Assembly: GCA_022865865.1 (NCBI GenBank)
Contig: JALHTN010000599.1
Location: 1-9,131 of the forward strand
Length of the DNA: 9,131 nt
Origin: Anaerolineales bacterium
GTDB taxonomy: Bacteria > Chloroflexota > Anaerolineae > Anaerolineales > UBA4823
Direction of reading: 5' to 3'
A model generated the notes under the pieces. It saw nothing but the letters and a program-made list of their open reading frames with translations. It was not told where the DNA came from and made no database searches. Positions 2,686 through 9,070 of this stretch are shown here, piece after piece. How positions within the stretch are numbered: the stretch's first letter is position 1; each line of letters opens with the position of its first letter. Position numbers and translations under genes: made by a program.

Positions 2686-3609
2686 ATGCAAATGCATAAA
2701 TCGCCTAACGTTCAACTTTCCATTATAAATCTCCCCCAACTCTCCCAGGGGCAATTTGGTTACAACGACTTCCCGCTAAAATATGACCCATCCCAGGAAG
2801 TGATCAGGTCAATTAATAGTAAACCGCTTGCAGACCGGCTGCACCCCTATGGGGCTCGCTATTATCTGATCAAATCACAAGAACCGGTCAAAGTTTCCTT
2901 CTCAGGCTCAACCCTGGCGCATTTGACTCCAGCTGAGCCCCCCACTGGTGATTATGTGTGGTACTCTAATCGCGGCGATGAAAGCGATTTCAGCCTCACG
3001 CGCAGTTTCGATTTGACTGGCCTTGACAGCGCAACATTAGATTACAGAATCTGGTATCAATTAGATAATCTGTACGATTATGCCTATGTTGAAGCTTCCC
3101 CAGATAGAGGCCGGACTTGGGAAATCCTTACCACTGCCTGCGGTACAGACAGAAATCCAAGGGGTCAGGCCATTGGCTTTGGATACACTGGATCAACAAA
3201 CGAGTGGCTTTCCGAATCGATCAATCTTAATCTCTATACTGGTCAGGAGATTATCATCCGTTTTCAACTCATCACCGACTTCACCATCAACCGGGATGGC
3301 ATCCAGCTCGACGATATCGCCATCCCCGAACTGGAATATTTCGACAGCGCAGAGGATGAGTCTGGTGGCTGGGACGCTCAGGGCTTCATCCTCAGCAGCA
3401 ACCTGGTCCCGGTGGAATGGATCGTCTGGCTGGTGAAAGCTTCCAATCCGATGCAGGTCGAACATATCTCCCTCTCCCCAGCACAAATGGCAGAATTCGA
3501 GATCGAGGGCTTTGGCAAGCAGTTTAATTTCGCAGCAATAGTAATTTCCCCCACTGCACCCACCACCACCATGGAGCTAGACTATGAGCTTGTATTCCAA
3601 CATCCCTAG
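2686..3609 (+). CDS. Partial paralogue of the metalloprotease C-terminus (no protease domain), possible decaying copy
   Basis: Seen: 307 aa. From GQFGY (residue 22 onward) it aligns with the upstream protease from its residue 395 to the end, at a constant 941-base offset from GSTLA onward and with one codon fewer before that. It lacks the signal peptide, the HEXXH motif and the whole catalytic domain. The first 21 residues keep only a faint echo of the paralogue's ANLVDQSQIQEGQFGY. No convincing ribosome binding site precedes the ATG at 2686 (or the in-frame ATG at 2692), and only 17 bases separate it from the previous stop. Without an export signal a beta domain of this type would stay in the cytoplasm. 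Inferred: a 3' tandem-duplication remnant. It may be translated by coupling, or kept because its 3' end carries the start signals of the regulator gene. The frame is intact, so I do not call it a definite pseudogene. Confidence 0.6.
   Translation: MQMHKSPNVQLSIINLPQLSQGQFGYNDFPLKYDPSQEVIRSINSKPLADRLHPYGARYYLIKSQEPVKVSFSGSTLAHLTPAEPPTGDYVWYSNRGDESDFSLTRSFDLTGLDSATLDYRIWYQLDNLYDYAYVEASPDRGRTWEILTTACGTDRNPRGQAIGFGYTGSTNEWLSESINLNLYTGQEIIIRFQLITDFTINRDGIQLDDIAIPELEYFDSAEDESGGWDAQGFILSSNLVPVEWIVWLVKASNPMQVEHISLSPAQMAEFEIEGFGKQFNFAAIVISPTAPTTTMELDYELVFQHP
3282..3609 (+). repeat. Direct repeat copy B (3' end of the partial paralogue)
   Basis: Partner of 2341-2668, with about 92% nucleotide identity and no gaps. 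In this copy the last 40 bases differ so that a GGAG appears at 3573-3576 in front of the ATG at 3584. Copy A has CAGC at the equivalent place. Confidence 0.9.
3573..3576 (+). promoter_or_regulatory. Ribosome binding site of the Crp/Fnr gene, inside the upstream reading frame
   Basis: GGAG lies seven bases before the ATG at 3584, within the coding sequence of the partial paralogue. This supports the overlapping start and suggests translational coupling between the two genes. Confidence 0.65.
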
Positions 3610-4309
3610 TGCCCCACCCGGCGCGCCAGAATTTCTCAGCAGCCTGCCTTTATTCGCCGATCTGACTGGAGATCAGCTCGATCAGATCGCCCAACGAGTC
3701 CAACGGCGCACCTATGCTTATGGAATCACCTTGTTTCACCAGGATATGCCCGGCACGATGATGTACATGATCGAATCTGGCAGTGTGCGGGTGATCAGCA
3801 TCGGTCGAACAGGTCAGGAGTTAACTCTTAACGTGCTCGGGCCGGGAGAGCTGTTCGGCGAGCTATCCCTCTTGGATGGTCAGCAGCGATCTGCGACCGC
3901 CATTACCTTGGCGCCCACAGTTGCCTGGCTGCTCTCGCAGGCTGATCTAAAGGAATTCATGCACAAGTTTCCGCCTGTCAACCAGGCTATGATCCAGATC
4001 TTGGTAGAGCGCGTCCGGTCAACCGCACGGCGTTTGGAAGCCATGACCTTTCAGGATGTATTGGGCAGATTAGCATTCGAGCTGCTCAGCCTGGCTGAAC
4101 GCAGCGGTAAGCCCTGTGATCGGGGGGTGGAAATAACCATCCCGCTGACCCAGGTTGACCTGGCAACCATGGTGGGTGCCACCCGTGAAAGTGTAAATAA
4201 ATCCGTCTCAATATTGCGCTCCAAAGGGTTGATCGATTTTGATGGTACCAGCTGGTTCCTGCAGGACCCGGCAGGCATGCAGCAGATTTTATATGAAAGA
4301 GGTCGCTAG
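3584..4309 (+). CDS. Crp/Fnr-family cyclic-nucleotide-type transcription regulator
   Basis: Seen: 241 aa. An N-terminal cNMP-binding beta-roll covers about residues 20-135, with the phosphate-binding cassette GPGELFGELSLLDGQQRSAT at 86-105. G92, E93, R102 and S103 match the cAMP-contacting G71, E72, R82 and S83 of E. coli CRP. A long helix follows at about 132-160 and a winged HTH at about 187-225. The recognition helix reads TRESVNKS (200-207); E. coli CRP has SRETVGRI, so the DNA-contacting Arg180 and Glu181 are kept and Arg185 is Lys. There is no N-terminal Cys cluster of the FNR kind. The gene overlaps the preceding one by 26 bases and its TAG at 4307-4309 abuts the next ATG. Inferred: an activator responding to cAMP or a related nucleotide, recognising TGTGA half-sites. 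A site of exactly this kind lies at 7917-7932. Confidence 0.93.
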   Translation: MSLYSNIPSAPPGAPEFLSSLPLFADLTGDQLDQIAQRVQRRTYAYGITLFHQDMPGTMMYMIESGSVRVISIGRTGQELTLNVLGPGELFGELSLLDGQQRSATAITLAPTVAWLLSQADLKEFMHKFPPVNQAMIQILVERVRSTARRLEAMTFQDVLGRLAFELLSLAERSGKPCDRGVEITIPLTQVDLATMVGATRESVNKSVSILRSKGLIDFDGTSWFLQDPAGMQQILYERGR

Positions 4310-7300
4310 ATGACAGTGGATTGGTATTCTGGTTTAGAAAGTAGGTTAGCCAATCTTGACGAGGACCAGTTACCCGCAGCAGACTCTGCGCCTGGGATCT
4401 GGGAGTCTTTGGAGAAACGCGTTCAAATTGCAGAATACCAGCCCGAGAGAAACCCACAGGTGCTCGAGCAGGAATTAAGTGACAGATCCGGAACTTATTT
4501 TGTGCTCAAGAACACTGAAGAAAAAACCTACCTGCGTTTATCGCCAACTGAGTATTCCTTATGGCAGAGCATGGACGGTGAGACAACCGTTCAGGAGCTG
4601 ATCGTCGAACATTTCATGACCAGCGGTGAATTTGCACATACGACCGTGGTCCGGCTGGTGGAGATGCTCTACTGGAAGCATATGTTCACGGACCGGCCCA
4701 TCTCGATTTGGAGCCAGATCAACAGGGAAATCGCCAAACGCACCTGGAGATTTCGTCTCAGCCTGCCAGCCACGAAATTTATGAACCAGCCCATCGGCTA
4801 TAACGGTTTGGACAAATACATCTCGCTAATCTACAAATATGGGGGTTTCATCTTTTTCACCCGCCCAGTGCAGATTCTGCTGGTATTAATCACAATCCTC
4901 GGTCTGGCGGCGTTCTCGCAAGTAATCCGCGATCCCAATTACCAATTTTTTGGTGCCAACTTCCTCGCCAGCATCGCCCTGATTTGGGTGGCCTCACTCC
5001 TGCCGATATTCATCCACGAGATGGGCCACGCCCTGACCGTCAAACACTTCGGGCGTGAGGTGCCCAAAGGTGGGGTGATGCTGTACTTCGGCCTGCCAGC
5101 TGCATTTGTGGAAACCACGGATATCTGGCTGGAACCAAAAAAGGCGCGGCTCGCCGTTACCTGGAATGGACCCTATACCGGTTTGATCATCGGAGGCCTG
5201 GCAGCCATATTCATCTATCTGTACCCATCCGCCTCGATCAACTCTTTCTTATTCAAGATGCTGGTGGTTGCTTACACCACCGTATTGTTCAACGTCAACC
5301 CGCTCTTGAAATACGACGGGTACTACTTACTTTCCGATTGGCTGGAAATCCCTTCATTACGAGAAAGGTCTTCAGCGTTTCTGCGTCGCAAATTCCTCAA
5401 CAAAATCATGAATAGGAAAAAATTCACCCGCGATGAGGTAATTTTCTCCGCATTCGGAATTCTCTCAATTGCTTGGATGGCTTACGCGCTGTATCTGATC
5501 AGCTCAGTCTACCAGTCCCGCGTCCAGCACGGGCTGCAAACCATATTAGGCAGCAATTACTCGCTCACCTCCCGTATATTTAGTTTCTTATTAATTGGCG
5601 GGCTGCTCTCTTTTGCCTTCTTGATGGGTTTGAGGTTGGTTGGCGTGGTTCAATCGCTAATCTCCAGGTACAGCCAGACTGGAGGTTTCCAGCGTCACGG
5701 CCAATTCGCCATCCTCGGCGCGGCGGTAACGGTCCTGGCCGCCCTCATTCTCTTATTGGCACTGCCTGGACAGGCATATTGGTTGGGGCCAGTTTTGGGA
5801 ATGCTGGCGGTTTCATTCGCTGCATATCGTTTATTCACCGCTGCACCACCATATCTTGGTTCGGCGCGTGGTATCACCTATCTTCTGATCGCCACCGCGC
5901 TGGCCCTGGTGGGTTTATCCTTAATCCTGCAGTTGATCGATCTAAATCAGGCTTTTGTTTTCTGGCTTCAGTGGATTGCGGTGTTCCTGGTGGGTGCGGG
6001 AATGCTCCTGCTGGTCCTGCCTCCCCAGGGAAGATTGAAAACGCTGCCGGTTTTGCTTGGTGTATTCAGCGGGATCGCCATATTCGCAGGGCTTTATTGG
6101 TGGGCTGATTTCCCACTCTCACCCGCCTCACTCAGCCTGGGTTTAATCGCCATGCTGAGCATCTGGTCGGTATCCAGCTTGCGAGGTGGTGCGCGTGCAC
6201 CGGCCTTCCTGCTGCTGGGCTTGGGCAGCCTAATAATCGATATTTCCTGGCTGATTGCTTTCCCATTTGTTGACCTCAGCACAATCGGAACCTTGATCCT
6301 GGCTGCCGGAGGGCTGCATCTGGTCTTCGCCCAGTTGCCCCAGCTATCTTCCTACGCCCTGGAGGATATTCCCAGCGAGACTCAAAAAGCGATTGGTGCT
6401 TCGGTGGCCATCCTGGTCCGCCGCGTCATCGCCCAGGTATTTTTCGAATCTGGTTACCTGGGAGTGGATCGCTTGGGTACTGAATTCACTCAGGCCATGA
6501 AGCAGCTGGGCGTCGATATCCAAATCTCGGGAAACCATTTCCAAGACAATGAGCTGCCCAAGAGGAGCGCCGATGAGCTCACCGAGGTCTACCACCTGGT
6601 GTTCGACGAGCTGCACCGCATCCTTCAGCGTGAGCTGGGACAGGGAATGGGGGATTTGGCTTTCGGCTTTGGGATCGACATGCTCCCCTGGCAGACACGC
6701 GAAGTCGTCTCCGAGCTGATCATCTCCCGCCTGGATTGGGGTTCGAGTCTCGGTGAACAGGTGCAGGACAACAGAAATCACACCCGCAATCTTCTCCGGC
6801 GAGTGCCGTTATTTATCACCGTGACCGACGAGGAATTAGATAATATCGCCAACCACCTCAAGCAGGAAAGGTTTGCTTCCGGTGAGGTGGTCATCCGGGA
6901 AGGGGAAGTCGGTGACAAATTCTACATCCTTGAAAGAGGCAAGGCTTCAGTGTGGAGAATTGATGCTGACCAGGTGGAGCGCAAAATCGACGAGAAAGGC
7001 CCCGGCCAGTATTTCGGCGAGGTCGCCCTGGTTTCCAGTGCACCACGCAACGCTACGGTACGCGCTGAAACACCCATAAAAACCCTGGCCTTGGATTACA
7101 GCGATTTCAACCAGTGTGTGCGCCAGTATATCAATCTGGCCAGCCAGGTAGATGAAAATGTCAAGTTCAGCTGGCTGCTGCGCGGTATGCCGATTTTCGA
7201 CGAATTATCCAGCCAGAAATTGGATCAATTAGCCACCTGGTTGGAAGCGGAACCTCTAGAAACTGGTGCCGTGCTCTTCCATGAAGGTGATCAGGCAGAT

Positions 7301-7594
7301 AAGTTCTATATTGTCGAATCCGGTGAGGTGGTCATCAGCCGCTTGGTGGATGGTGAGCAGGTGGAGATCTCTCGCCGGGAACCAGGAGAATATTTCGGAG
7401 AGATCGCCCTGCTGCAGAATCGCCCCCGCACCGCAACCATCACGGCTTCCACCGATACCTGCTTGCTGAGCCTGGAATCGGAACATTTCCAGGAACTGAC
7501 ATCACACTTCATGCAGCTCGGCGCCACGATATCCCGCACCAGCACCCGGCGGTTATCCTTCGTAAAAGCAGTAGATCAAAATATCCCTCAATAA
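4310..7594 (+). CDS. PqqD-like / M50 zinc metalloprotease / dual cNMP-binding membrane fusion protein
   Basis: Seen: 1094 aa. Residues about 58-130 form a PqqD-like domain (GTYFVLKN...YLRLSPTEYSLW...). Membrane segments follow, with the M50 zinc motif HEMGH at 236-240 in a hydrophobic helix and the second site NPLLKYDGYY at 330-339 (D336 the likely third ligand). About ten more hydrophobic helices run to residue 675. A soluble helical region of unknown type covers 680-825. Two cNMP-binding domains end the protein (about 832-950 and 958-1075), with cassettes YFGEVAL..APRNAT and YFGEIAL..RPRTAT. Known: M50 proteins with PqqD-like N-termini are annotated as putative peptide zinc metalloproteases, and PqqD-type domains bind leader peptides of RiPP precursors. 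Inferred: a membrane protease or exporter-associated protein that binds a leader peptide and is gated by a cyclic nucleotide. AGAGG at 4298-4302 is the ribosome site. The downstream leader-bearing protein is a natural substrate candidate. Confidence 0.88.
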   Translation: MTVDWYSGLESRLANLDEDQLPAADSAPGIWESLEKRVQIAEYQPERNPQVLEQELSDRSGTYFVLKNTEEKTYLRLSPTEYSLWQSMDGETTVQELIVEHFMTSGEFAHTTVVRLVEMLYWKHMFTDRPISIWSQINREIAKRTWRFRLSLPATKFMNQPIGYNGLDKYISLIYKYGGFIFFTRPVQILLVLITILGLAAFSQVIRDPNYQFFGANFLASIALIWVASLLPIFIHEMGHALTVKHFGREVPKGGVMLYFGLPAAFVETTDIWLEPKKARLAVTWNGPYTGLIIGGLAAIFIYLYPSASINSFLFKMLVVAYTTVLFNVNPLLKYDGYYLLSDWLEIPSLRERSSAFLRRKFLNKIMNRKKFTRDEVIFSAFGILSIAWMAYALYLISSVYQSRVQHGLQTILGSNYSLTSRIFSFLLIGGLLSFAFLMGLRLVGVVQSLISRYSQTGGFQRHGQFAILGAAVTVLAALILLLALPGQAYWLGPVLGMLAVSFAAYRLFTAAPPYLGSARGITYLLIATALALVGLSLILQLIDLNQAFVFWLQWIAVFLVGAGMLLLVLPPQGRLKTLPVLLGVFSGIAIFAGLYWWADFPLSPASLSLGLIAMLSIWSVSSLRGGARAPAFLLLGLGSLIIDISWLIAFPFVDLSTIGTLILAAGGLHLVFAQLPQLSSYALEDIPSETQKAIGASVAILVRRVIAQVFFESGYLGVDRLGTEFTQAMKQLGVDIQISGNHFQDNELPKRSADELTEVYHLVFDELHRILQRELGQGMGDLAFGFGIDMLPWQTREVVSELIISRLDWGSSLGEQVQDNRNHTRNLLRRVPLFITVTDEELDNIANHLKQERFASGEVVIREGEVGDKFYILERGKASVWRIDADQVERKIDEKGPGQYFGEVALVSSAPRNATVRAETPIKTLALDYSDFNQCVRQYINLASQVDENVKFSWLLRGMPIFDELSSQKLDQLATWLEAEPLETGAVLFHEGDQADKFYIVESGEVVISRLVDGEQVEISRREPGEYFGEIALLQNRPRTATITASTDTCLLSLESEHFQELTSHFMQLGATISRTSTRRLSFVKAVDQNIPQ

Positions 7595-7615
7595 GCTTAG
7601 GAGTTAAAATCACTG

Positions 7616-7828
7616 ATGAATTGTATCCATTGTGACCGTTCAGCGCACGCAAACTGCCGCTTCTGTGGTCGTTCCGTATGTAAAGACCACCTGCAAACGA
7701 TGCCCTATATCATCGATCTCTATACCGGGGAAAGCGGAGAACAGATGGCCATCGTCGTGCCGGATGCTGTTTACTGTGGAATCTGCAAACCCCGTGAGCG
7801 ACCTATCCCCATGCCTGAATTAAAATAA
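7616..7828 (+). CDS. Small double zinc-site protein (B-box/cross-brace-like), function unknown
   Basis: Seen: 70 aa. Cysteine pairs occur at C3/C6, C14/C17 (CRFCG) and C54/C57 (CGIC), plus C22 and H25 (VCKDH). These eight potential ligands suit two zinc ions, perhaps in a cross-brace arrangement as in B-box or AN1-type fingers. The middle (residues 30-50) has no cysteines and looks like a beta insertion. There is no signal peptide or membrane segment. AGGAG at 7599-7603 sits 12 bases before the ATG, a somewhat long spacing, and the gene starts 21 bases after the protease stop, so it probably belongs to the same operon. I do not recognise a named family. A role as adaptor or protein-protein contact for the membrane protease is a guess from position only. 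Confidence 0.75.
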   Translation: MNCIHCDRSAHANCRFCGRSVCKDHLQTMPYIIDLYTGESGEQMAIVVPDAVYCGICKPRERPIPMPELK

Positions 7829-7916
7829 ACCATAATTATATTTATTTGGATACCATGCCTGCCTCCCTTTTCCGGTATTCTGGCTCGCAAATTACTCATA
7901 ATTCCGATGATTTAGG

Positions 7917-7932
7917 TGTGATTTAGATCACA
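7917..7932. promoter_or_regulatory. CRP-type operator, near-perfect TGTGA-N6-TCACA
   Basis: The sequence TGTGATTTAGATCACA has both E. coli CRP half-sites intact with the standard six-base spacer, and differs from the ideal symmetric core TGTGATCTAGATCACA at one base. The Crp-family regulator encoded at 3584-4309 keeps the Arg-Glu recognition pair expected to read this motif. The centre lies about 110 bases before the predicted transcription start. That is far for direct class I activation but possible with DNA bending, a second factor or another promoter. Confidence 0.8.
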
Positions 7933-7953
7933 CTTGGCTCGTTCAGCAGGTCA

Positions 7954-7970
7954 CATCCACCAGGTGGATG
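7954..7970. promoter_or_regulatory. Operator-like perfect palindrome between CRP site and promoter
   Basis: CATCCACCAGGTGGATG is a perfect 8-bp inverted repeat around a single central base. Its centre is about 73 bases before the predicted start of transcription and about 37 bases after the CRP-site centre. A one-base loop makes an RNA hairpin role unlikely, so a dimeric DNA-binding protein is the better reading. The protein is unknown. Confidence 0.5.
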
Positions 7971-7999
7971 ACTTCACTGGTCGAAACTATCTTGTTTCA

Positions 8000-8028
8000 C
8001 TGACATTTCCCACCTAAACGGGTATATT
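8000..8028 (+). promoter_or_regulatory. Sigma70-type promoter for the repeat-protein gene
   Basis: CTGACA (8000-8005, five of six matches to the -35 consensus) and TATATT (8023-8028, five of six to the -10) are separated by exactly 17 bases. Transcription would start near 8035, giving a 5' leader of about 45 bases that is A/C-rich and unstructured. Confidence 0.7.
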
Positions 8029-8067
8029 TAGGCACGGGAGACACAAACAAAACAACTAACCAATCCC

Positions 8068-8073
8068 AAGGAG
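8068..8073 (+). promoter_or_regulatory. Strong ribosome binding site of the repeat-protein gene
   Basis: AAGGAG with a six-base A-rich spacer precedes the ATG at 8080. It is the best ribosome site in the window and implies high expression. Confidence 0.85.
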
Positions 8074-8079
8074 ATAAAA

Positions 8080-8892
8080 ATGAGCGCAGACGAATCTAGA
8101 AAAGTTGTCAGTCGAGCGGTAATGGAAGAAGATTTTCGTAATCAATTGTTCAGTGATCCCGACACAGCCCTGGTGGGTTACGATCTAACCCCAGAAGAAA
8201 TCAGTGCACTGCGTTCGATCCCTGCCGAAACGATCGATGAATTCGCCAATAATTTAGATGAGCGCATCTCGATGTCGCTGCTGTATTTTGGTGCTGATCT
8301 GATGGGTGGTGAGGCGATGGGCAGTGACGCCATGGGCGGCGCAGCTGAGGGTGGTTCAGCGTTTGGAAGCGATGCCATGGGCAGTAACGCCGAAGGCAGT
8401 TTGGCAGAGGGTAGTGTCGCTGAAGGCAGCTTTGCTGAAGGCAGCCTGGCTGAAGGCAGCTTAGCCGAAGGTAGTTTGGCGGAAGGCAGTTTAGCCGAAG
8501 GCAGTTTTGCTGAGGGCAGCCTGGCCGAAGGCAGTTTAGCAGAGGGCAGCCTGGCAGAGGGTAGTCTTGCAGAGGGCAGCCTGGCAGAGGGTAGTCTTGC
8601 AGAGGGCAGCCTGGCAGAGGGTAGTCTTGCCGAAGGCAGTCTGGCAGAGGGTAGTCTTGCCGAAGGCAGTCTTGCTGAAGGCAGCTTAGCCGAAGGTAGT
8701 TTGGCTGAAGGCAGTCTGGCAGAGGGTAGTGTCGCTGAAGGCAGTCTGGCTGAAGGCGGCGAGGCCATGGGCGCTGACGCAGTGTTTGGTGCCGCAGCGG
8801 GCAGTACAGGCAACTGGCTGGAGAGATTAGCCACAGCACTGGGTGTCAGTGGCGGTGGCGGTGGCGGCGGCGGCAGCAACAACTACTACTAA
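8080..8892 (+). CDS. NHLP/Nif11-like leader protein with 24 AEGSL pentapeptide repeats and poly-Gly tail
   Basis: Seen: 270 aa in four parts. Residues 1-70 are an acidic helical domain with EEDFRNQLFSDPDTAL and YDLTPEEISALRSI, the pattern of Nif11/NHLP-clan RiPP leaders (families of the Franean1_4349 or Os1348 kind, from memory). Residues 76-107 are degenerate pentads (GGEAM, GSDAM, GGAAE). Residues 108-227 are 24 tandem [L/V/F]AEGS units, the last ending GG. Residues 228-270 contain GGEAM-like pentads, a short amphipathic helix (NWLERLATALG), eight glycines (258-265) and SNNYY. The repeat has no Cys and Ser as the only hydroxylated residue. A large hydrophobic residue every fifth position with Gly two before it resembles pentapeptide-repeat beta-solenoids, though the usual A-D/N-L core is absent. 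It may be a RiPP-like multicore precursor or an exported structural/surface protein. It has no Sec signal peptide. Position and promoter link it to the Crp/M50 genes upstream. Confidence 0.85.
   Translation: MSADESRKVVSRAVMEEDFRNQLFSDPDTALVGYDLTPEEISALRSIPAETIDEFANNLDERISMSLLYFGADLMGGEAMGSDAMGGAAEGGSAFGSDAMGSNAEGSLAEGSVAEGSFAEGSLAEGSLAEGSLAEGSLAEGSFAEGSLAEGSLAEGSLAEGSLAEGSLAEGSLAEGSLAEGSLAEGSLAEGSLAEGSLAEGSLAEGSLAEGSLAEGSVAEGSLAEGGEAMGADAVFGAAAGSTGNWLERLATALGVSGGGGGGGGSNNYY
8401..8760 (+). repeat. 24 tandem 15-bp units coding [L/V/F]AEGS
   Basis: Twenty-three full units plus a final LAEGG unit are uninterrupted and in frame. First residues run L V F L L L L F, then fourteen L, then V, L. Units differ mainly at synonymous positions (Leu ttg/tta/ctg/ctt, Ala gcc/gct/gca/gcg, Glu gaa/gag). 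A 30-bp higher-order period appears at 8551-8670, where ctggcagagggtagt alternates with a ctt-starting unit four times. Confidence 0.97.
8851..8874 (+). repeat. GGY codon run encoding eight glycines
   Basis: Eight consecutive ggc/ggt codons encode glycine 258-265 of the repeat protein, just before its SNNYY end. The triplet run is prone to slippage, so its length may vary between strains. Confidence 0.95.
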
Positions 8893-8916
8893 AATTAATT
8901 TCTCCCACAATGAATT

Positions 8917-8944
8917 TACAGCCGCCCAAATTTGGGCGGCTGTA
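8917..8944 (+). terminator. Perfect 28-bp palindrome, likely transcription terminator of the repeat-protein gene
   Basis: Arms 8917-8930 and 8931-8944 (TACAGCCGCCCAAA and its exact reverse complement) form a GC-rich stem with an AATT tip, 24 bases after the stop codon. Only a weak T-rich stretch (TTATGTT) follows, so termination may be partial or Rho-assisted. An mRNA-stabilising 3' hairpin is an alternative. Its symmetry lets it work on both strands. Confidence 0.75.
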
Positions 8945-8954
8945 TTATGTTCCG

Positions 8955-8994: not shown

Positions 8995-9066
8995 GGGCGC
9001 GTAGCTCAATGGTAGAGCAGTGGCCTTTTAAGCCATTGGTTGCAGGTTCGAGCCCTGCCGCGCTCA
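8995..9066 (+). tRNA. trnK: tRNA-Lys (anticodon TTT)
   Basis: The 72 bases fold into a full cloverleaf. The acceptor GGGCGCG pairs with CGCGCTC (one G-T), the D stem is GCTC/GAGC, and the anticodon stem GTGGC/GCCAT encloses loop CTTTTAA with anticodon TTT at its centre. A five-base variable loop TGGTT follows, then T stem GCAGG/CCTGC around TTCGAGC, and discriminator A. CCA is not encoded (ACTT follows), so it must be added after transcription. It reads AAA and, by wobble, AAG lysine codons. Confidence 0.97.
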
Positions 9067-9070
9067 CTTC

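Follow-up and report, generated by a model that had tools for sequence, protein, structure and literature searches.

A candidate cyclic-nucleotide-linked cassette for leader-dependent protein processing in an Anaerolineales bacterium

A 9,131 bp stretch of Anaerolineales bacterium DNA (GenBank assembly GCA_022865865.1, contig JALHTN010000599.1; the whole stretch is referred to here as the window) carries four adjacent forward-strand genes that may form a second-messenger-controlled cassette for the leader-dependent processing, and possibly the export, of a protein. They code for a Crp/FNR-type regulator, a membrane protein joining a PqqD-like RRE domain, an M50 protease core and two cyclic-nucleotide-binding (cNMP) domains, a small cysteine-rich protein with putative zinc binding, and a protein in which a precursor leader is followed by pentapeptide repeats (Table 1). 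All four, and the Crp-type operator before the last gene, had been named in the original prediction for this DNA and all are found, with crp (3584-4309) lying just outside the interval 4310-8892 to which that prediction referred. We put the probability of this reading at about 0.6.

The genes keep company in relatives. Among 396 genomes of the class to which a chloroflexotan relative belongs, 34 have a match to the M50 protein with an E value of 1e-60 or lower, and the surroundings of the resulting 35 M50 genes (4.7-20 kb, several cut by contig ends) were scanned with our own profiles; weaker M50 genes, such as those in the zinc-centred loci L227 and L258 and a fragment in L228, are excluded from the 35. 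Counting leader genes at 30 bits or more and at most 6 kb from the M50 gene, a leader is present in 12/35, a zinc-protein gene in 13/35 and at least one of the two in 15/35, so that the M50 gene and its predicted partners are neighbours in these relatives as the original prediction had expected. The 6-kb limit was chosen after the loci had been inspected, and at 5 kb the leaders fall from 12 to 10 of 35 (L164 and L166 are lost). A crude binomial estimate for a leader near 12 of 35 M50 genes is 3e-20, with 1.6 leaders per genome, 4.5 Mb and independence assumed and relatedness uncorrected. Placed in a tree of 54 rows (the 35 M50 genes, the window and other relatives), 17 of the 20 M50 genes without a partner form a single separate clade (support 100/100), and the other three (L167, L170, L171) leave their contigs inside the M50 gene. 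In one genome of the latter kind (G002), a different contig carries a zinc-protein gene at its base 166, followed by four leader genes (L172), and zinc and leader genes neighbour each other elsewhere in four of the 17 clade genomes (L230, L232, L236, L244).

The M50-zinc-leader order of the window recurs in six Actinomycetota loci (L008, L010, L011, L013, L019, L021); a seventh locus, L015, stops shortly after the M50 gene, before the order could show. In the six loci the leaders are matched more weakly (31-41 bits with our own profile; in L013, PF14407 at E 0.0096). The cNMP matches are weak as well (E 3.2e-5 for L013 and 9.9e-4 for L010). A reversed domain order, cNMP-cNMP-RRE-M50, is present in L020 (Actinomycetes) and in L026, L027, L034 and L050 (Pseudomonadota), with a leader gene alongside in L027 and L034 (46-48 bits), a 26-bit match in L020 that is under the 30-bit limit, and none seen beside the proteins of L026 and L050. 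Because the cassette genes recur together in other bacteria, they look like a real, little-studied pathway.

The 1094-residue protein has both M50 motifs intact, HExxH at residues 236-240 and NP-x4-DGY at 330-338, each within a long helix, and H236, E237, H240, N328, P331, D336, G337 and Y338 are invariant in 78 aligned sequences including the window, with N330 kept in at least 90% of them. Profile matches to the core are to NF041824 (136.1 bits over residues 64-406, below the family cut-off of 300) and to PF02163 (20.3 bits, below the Pfam cut-off of 27.2). The C-terminal part matches PF00027 in two stretches (157.9 bits), and the phosphate-binding cassettes of both appear intact, with G903, G1030, E1031 and R1040 invariant in the same alignment and E904, R913 and A915 kept in at least 90%; ligand binding is predicted. 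The AlphaFold2 model (mean predicted local distance difference test score, pLDDT, 80.9) has two cNMP folds and about 14 long helices between residues 185 and 673, presumably transmembrane, with HExxH inside the helix at 218-246, and PKA- or PKG-type cNMP proteins fill all but one or two of the best 50 matches of a fold search with the whole model. Residues 51-122 are modelled as three strands followed by three helices (block pLDDT 81-91), the winged-helix topology expected of an RRE. The RRE segments of relatives match the PqqD-related ScmD model in 7/11 cases (best 4.2e-5) and PqqD at E 0.1 or better in 3/11, and 3/15 of the relatives' proteins match PqqD at 0.01 or better (best 1.4e-4); a PDB sequence search with the RRE alignment has PaaA as its sole match, a marginal one (E 0.62).

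The leader of the last protein is assigned by its profile matches to the known Os1348/Franean1_4349 precursor clan (NF038399, 75.1 bits, cut-off 40; PF14407, 55.8 bits, cut-off 48), and scores 13.4 bits against the NHLP leader family TIGR03793, below the cut-off of 50.9. Chains A, C and B of Os1348 (PDB 6lk7) are the top three PDB matches of the leader model in Foldseek (probability 1.00, E 0.024-0.037; no match in that search reaches E 0.001 or better), and 6lk7 is also matched by sequence (E 1.4e-4). With a block pLDDT of 53-72 over residues 1-60 and 36 over residues 61-70, the model suggests an Os1348-like fold at modest confidence.

The leader is followed by 31 pentapeptide units, among them 20 copies of SLAEG that are written in 14 distinct DNA forms. 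These differ at third codon positions and at the first position of the Leu codon, and all of the differences are synonymous, which indicates that the amino acid repeat is kept; a slippage artefact was rejected as its source. A script finds 15-18 units in the homologues P0121, P0126, P0127 and P0129, and did not find the register in the other leader homologues. The classical pentapeptide-repeat motif is A(D/N)LxX; the classical family gives no Pfam match at E 0.1, and NF047416 (HetL) scores 18.6 bits against a cut-off of 260. For repeat residues 81-140 the AlphaFold2 model is a solenoid (block pLDDT 80-90), which we set aside as evidence because the program is described as predicting false solenoids with confidence when given repeats (PMC11795689); no solenoid is among the best 50 of 71 PDB fold matches of the leader-repeat model.

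Long repetitive or Gly/Ala-rich cargo is found in the window protein, in 9/11 leader homologues (not P0122 or P0131), in L156, L161 and L020, and in the six Actinomycetota loci with the window's gene order, whose leader proteins are 238-446 residues long with DxDGDG-rich C-terminal regions that presumably resemble the calcium sites of extracellular proteins. In many other leaders the tail is short, about 5-30 residues, and, judged by eye in L172, differs between neighbours: four tandem leader genes at 873-2231 of this locus, behind the zinc-protein gene, have like leaders and unlike short tails.

The zinc protein has conserved positions C3, C6, C14, C17, C22, H25, C54 and C57 in 12 sequences (C6 in at least 90%, the others invariant), and a PDB sequence search with its alignment matches only NSD-type histone methyltransferases (best E 0.0068). 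With E 1e-5 as the limit, it occurs at 84 places in 80/396 genomes; four of these, in three genomes and below 36 bits, were treated as noise, 14 lie in loci already fetched, and the other 66 gave 65 fetched loci (L226-L290). The flanks of these 65 contain a class III cyclase in 33, a leader in six, and an M50 gene or fragment in three, compared with cyclases in 0/17 of the partnerless M50 clade and 3/15 leader-only loci; the 33 are not independent because many of the 65 loci are related. The zinc protein is thus a wider family, and most of its cyclase-bearing loci have neither M50 gene nor leader. In L259 a cNMP gene is followed by genes for a ParA/MinD-type ATPase, the zinc protein and a cyclase, a layout that L268 shares as judged by gene sizes and our own profiles; L243 has ATPase, zinc protein and cyclase in that order. 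The original prediction needs correcting in that the zinc protein is a recurrent, though non-universal, member of the cassette, perhaps acting as an adaptor.

The link of the cassette to cyclic nucleotides rests on the regulator, the two cNMP domains, nearby cyclases and an operator-like sequence. A perfect TGTGA-N6-TCACA lies upstream of the leader-repeat gene, and it is the sole CRP-type match in the window at two or fewer mismatches, where 3.9 are expected by chance, so that only its exactness and place are notable. Exact sites are present within 400 bp upstream of 3/47 leader genes (the window, L161 and L230), or 2/46 without the window, against a background of 2/3000 random 400-bp stretches of related loci. 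Class III cyclases are encoded in the fetched flanks of 4/35 M50 genes (L156, L161 and L163 by Pfam, L166 by our own profile), and cyclase matches number 1-25 per genome in the 20 genomes tested, the only one in G071 being the L156 cyclase. The short M50 proteins of L164 and L173, which lack cNMP domains, each have a tandem-FHA gene (two FHA domains; 8130-8804 and 8255-8950 respectively) beside them, as though one sensor had replaced another. A CHAT-TPR gene is also present in L164.

Several observations weigh against the cassette reading. Exact CRP sites are absent from 44/47 leader genes, including those of L156, L162 and L292 despite a crp-like gene nearby; a crp-like gene (at least 80 bits) is within 6 kb of only 3/35 M50 genes (L156, L161, L162), and a cyclase within 6 kb of only two (L161, L166). 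The window itself has no class III cyclase gene, its CRP site is about 110 bp upstream of where transcription from the promoter-like match is assumed to start, a non-classical spacing, and no modifying enzyme is recognised among its genes. Four of the 15 partnered M50 genes (L164, L166, L173, L175) code for no cNMP domain, and cNMP control is therefore not general to the cassette. The PqqD-like match is weak in the window protein (PF05402 E 0.048, TIGR04248 E 0.064, both below curated cut-offs), the domain appearing better supported in relatives. Leader, zinc protein and cyclase are each found in 0/17 of the fetched flanks of the RRE-M50-cNMP clade (L174, L176-L191), and three genomes with an M50 gene and a leader (G071, G004, G087) give no zinc-protein match. 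The pairing of protease and leader, which was part of the original prediction, is seen in the 12 co-located cases and does not extend to the clan as a whole: many clan leaders lie away from M50 genes, leader matches are commoner than the protease (182/396 genomes, 102 above the family cut-off), and 0/15 hand-picked leader-only loci have an M50 or zinc gene.

Given the gene content and its recurrence, we infer the following course for the window cassette. The Os1348-clan leader of the repeat protein would dock on the RRE-like domain at the N-terminus of the M50 membrane protease, which would cut at or past the leader and perhaps also release or export the cargo, as proposed for EpeP. The two C-terminal cNMP domains would gate the protease, and the same messenger would switch on the substrate gene by way of the neighbouring Crp and the operator-like sequence at 7917-7932. 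The original prediction took these parts for a coherent leader-processing set, and of this the genomic association holds as evidence for a candidate system, with the function proposed from sequence. If the proposal is correct, a second messenger is tied directly, in one polypeptide, to the intramembrane processing of a leader-bearing protein; cyclic nucleotides gain a post-translational role in bacterial peptide and protein maturation; a switchable RiPP-type protease (RiPP, ribosomally synthesized and post-translationally modified peptide) is on offer; and the conserved zinc protein and the long precursor-leader repeat proteins of Chloroflexota and Actinomycetota acquire a probable setting.

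A wider and doubtful extension is that the cassette exports large repeat proteins by a leader-dependent, ABC-free route. The single membrane M50 protein, with its RRE receptor, some 14 long helices and PKA-R-like tandem cNMP sensor, would recognise, cut and export the cargo on a cAMP or cGMP signal from a class III cyclase, the tandem-FHA relatives being the same machine with another input. In a crude sequence-pattern scan, neither the window nor 18 further loci like it are flagged for an ABC ATPase, and 4/8 loci from other phyla (L011, L013, L019, L027) are; the scan covered the loci only, and a transporter elsewhere in the genome is possible.

Among other explanations, the one that survives best, though we think it rather unlikely, is that these genes are a variant of an ordinary RiPP cluster, which makes a small modified peptide; the cNMP domains would be regulators not specially tied to export, and the long repeats just an unusual core. 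Many cassette leaders do end in short variable tails, a RimK-like ATP-grasp gene lies between leader and M50 gene in L158 (6335-7264), L165 (9981-10826) and L258 (829-1695) and is a possible modifying enzyme for short-tailed leaders, and one L158 leader has a radical SAM/B12 gene beside it. The window fits this poorly, having no recognised modifying enzyme and a cargo of 31 repeats whose SLAEG units vary only synonymously, and neither the repeats of 9/11 leader homologues nor the length of the six Actinomycetota leader proteins is what a small peptide would lead one to expect.

It is improbable that the M50 protein serves in regulated intramembrane proteolysis, freeing a signalling domain, with the Os1348-like protein as a regulator that occupies the RRE-like domain and is not cargo. 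Signalling genes (cyclases, Crp, tandem FHA, CHAT) are indeed present in the neighbourhoods, and nearly leader-only proteins with tails of about 5-10 residues occur in L166, with an M50 gene nearby, and in L194, with none; but Os1348-clan proteins are annotated as precursor leaders, the four tandem leaders of L172 with their different tails look like precursors, and the window protein has a long extra region past its leader. Chance adjacency of unrelated genes, for which the 17/35 relatives without any partner in their fetched flanks might be cited, is very improbable and was rejected, as these 17 are one clade, 15 of the 18 others have a partner within 6 kb, the last three are cut by contig ends, and another phylum shows the same gene order.

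The crp stop codon immediately adjoins the M50 start codon at 4310. A perfect inverted repeat, a possible second operator, separates the CRP site from the promoter-like match. A tRNA-Lys gene (anticodon ttt) is located at 8995-9067, just 3' of the cassette. At the left end of the window, 3-590 encodes a SpoIIE-type phosphatase domain (PF07228, 167.2 bits); its gene probably extends beyond the window start. Next comes an InhA-MAM-type gene (623-2668). The open reading frame at 2686-3609 copies the 3' part of this gene without the protease part (77% DNA identity across 713 bases) and is likely a partial duplication of it.

Table 1. Features of the candidate cassette and its control elements (window coordinates).
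Feature	Position	Strand	Remarks
crp, Crp/FNR-type regulator	3584-4309	+	cNMP domain and HTH_Crp_2; phosphate-binding cassette FGELSLLDGQQRSA
RRE(PqqD-like)-M50-cNMP-cNMP membrane protein	4310-7594	+	1094 aa
RRE/PqqD-like domain	4457-4675	+	residues ~50-122; proposed leader-docking site
cNMP domain 1	6767-7144	+	residues ~820-945; motif FGEVALVSSAPRNA at 902
cNMP domain 2	7172-7549	+	residues ~955-1080; motif FGEIALLQNRPRTA at 1029
Cysteine-rich zinc protein	7616-7828	+	70 aa; putative zinc binding
CRP-consensus site TGTGA-N6-TCACA	7917-7932	+	perfect; begins 163 bp upstream of leader-repeat gene start codon
Inverted repeat CATCCACC/GGTGGATG	7954-7970		perfect, 8 bp, 1-nt gap
Sigma-70-like promoter match CTGACA-17-TATATT	8000-8028	+	consensus match only
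Leader-repeat protein	8080-8892	+	270 aa
Os1348/Franean1_4349-clan leader	8080-8295	+	residues 1-72
31 pentapeptide units	8308-8772	+	residues 77-231; pattern [GS]-x-A-x-G
C-terminal tail	8812-8889	+	begins NWLERLATALG; tail type in 8/9 aligned sequences, absent from P0127
Terminator-like hairpin	8917-8944	+	12-pair stem; pattern match; 3' of leader-repeat gene

The original prediction knew of no described system with this combination of genes, and we found no description of it among the open-licence PubMed Central papers listed, subscription papers and preprints being outside this scope; the leader clan is already known, and M50 processing of RiPPs is described in PMC10885120. Under M50, cNMP or Chloroflexi terms, no relevant passage appears in PMC2887384, PMC8939145 and PMC7470986, and the cNMP mention in PMC4558948 concerns a geosmin cluster.

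The best NCBIfam match of the RRE-M50 part is the daptide intramembrane metalloprotease (NF041824), from which the window protein differs in its added cNMP domains and in scoring below the family cut-off; no other daptide family is matched among the window proteins scanned. EpeP, YydH and LiaK, which we take to form one group (NF058609), are likewise membrane M50 proteases that act on a ribosomal precursor. The match to their profile is weak, and the window protein differs from these epipeptide proteases by its RRE-like domain, extra long helices, two cNMP domains and another leader family. According to PMC10885120, RiPP substrates are processed by the M50 enzymes TglG, TmoG and EpeP, and for EpeP a double role in cutting and export is proposed. 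The pearlin enzymes TglG and TmoG are also M50 proteases of the membrane, and cut a scaffold peptide of ribosomal origin (PMC10885120). The cNMP domains match TIGR03896 (cyc_nuc_ocin, bacteriocin-type transport-associated; best stretch 962-1061), whose link to such transport rests on the family name, and the match covers the cNMP part and not the RRE-M50 part. Assignment to the daptide, YydH/LiaK or TIGR03896 family was rejected, as the curated cut-offs are not reached (136.1/300, 50.7/225 and 82.6/161.05 bits). An ABC transporter gene near the precursor, as in NHLM-type bacteriocin export, was not found in a crude pattern scan of the window.

On the substrate side, the likeness is to Os1348 of Pseudomonas sp. 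Os17 and the PF14407 Franean1_4349 peptides, which share the leader family and fold (NF038399, PF14407, PDB 6lk7). Os1348 is short (85 aa), with a predicted SagB-type dehydrogenase and a gluzincin-like peptidase as neighbours according to a passage of PMC7726476, whereas the window leader carries 31 repeats and has an M50-cNMP protein as its partner. By analogy with these systems, the cassette would work like M50-dependent RiPP maturation with an added sensor.

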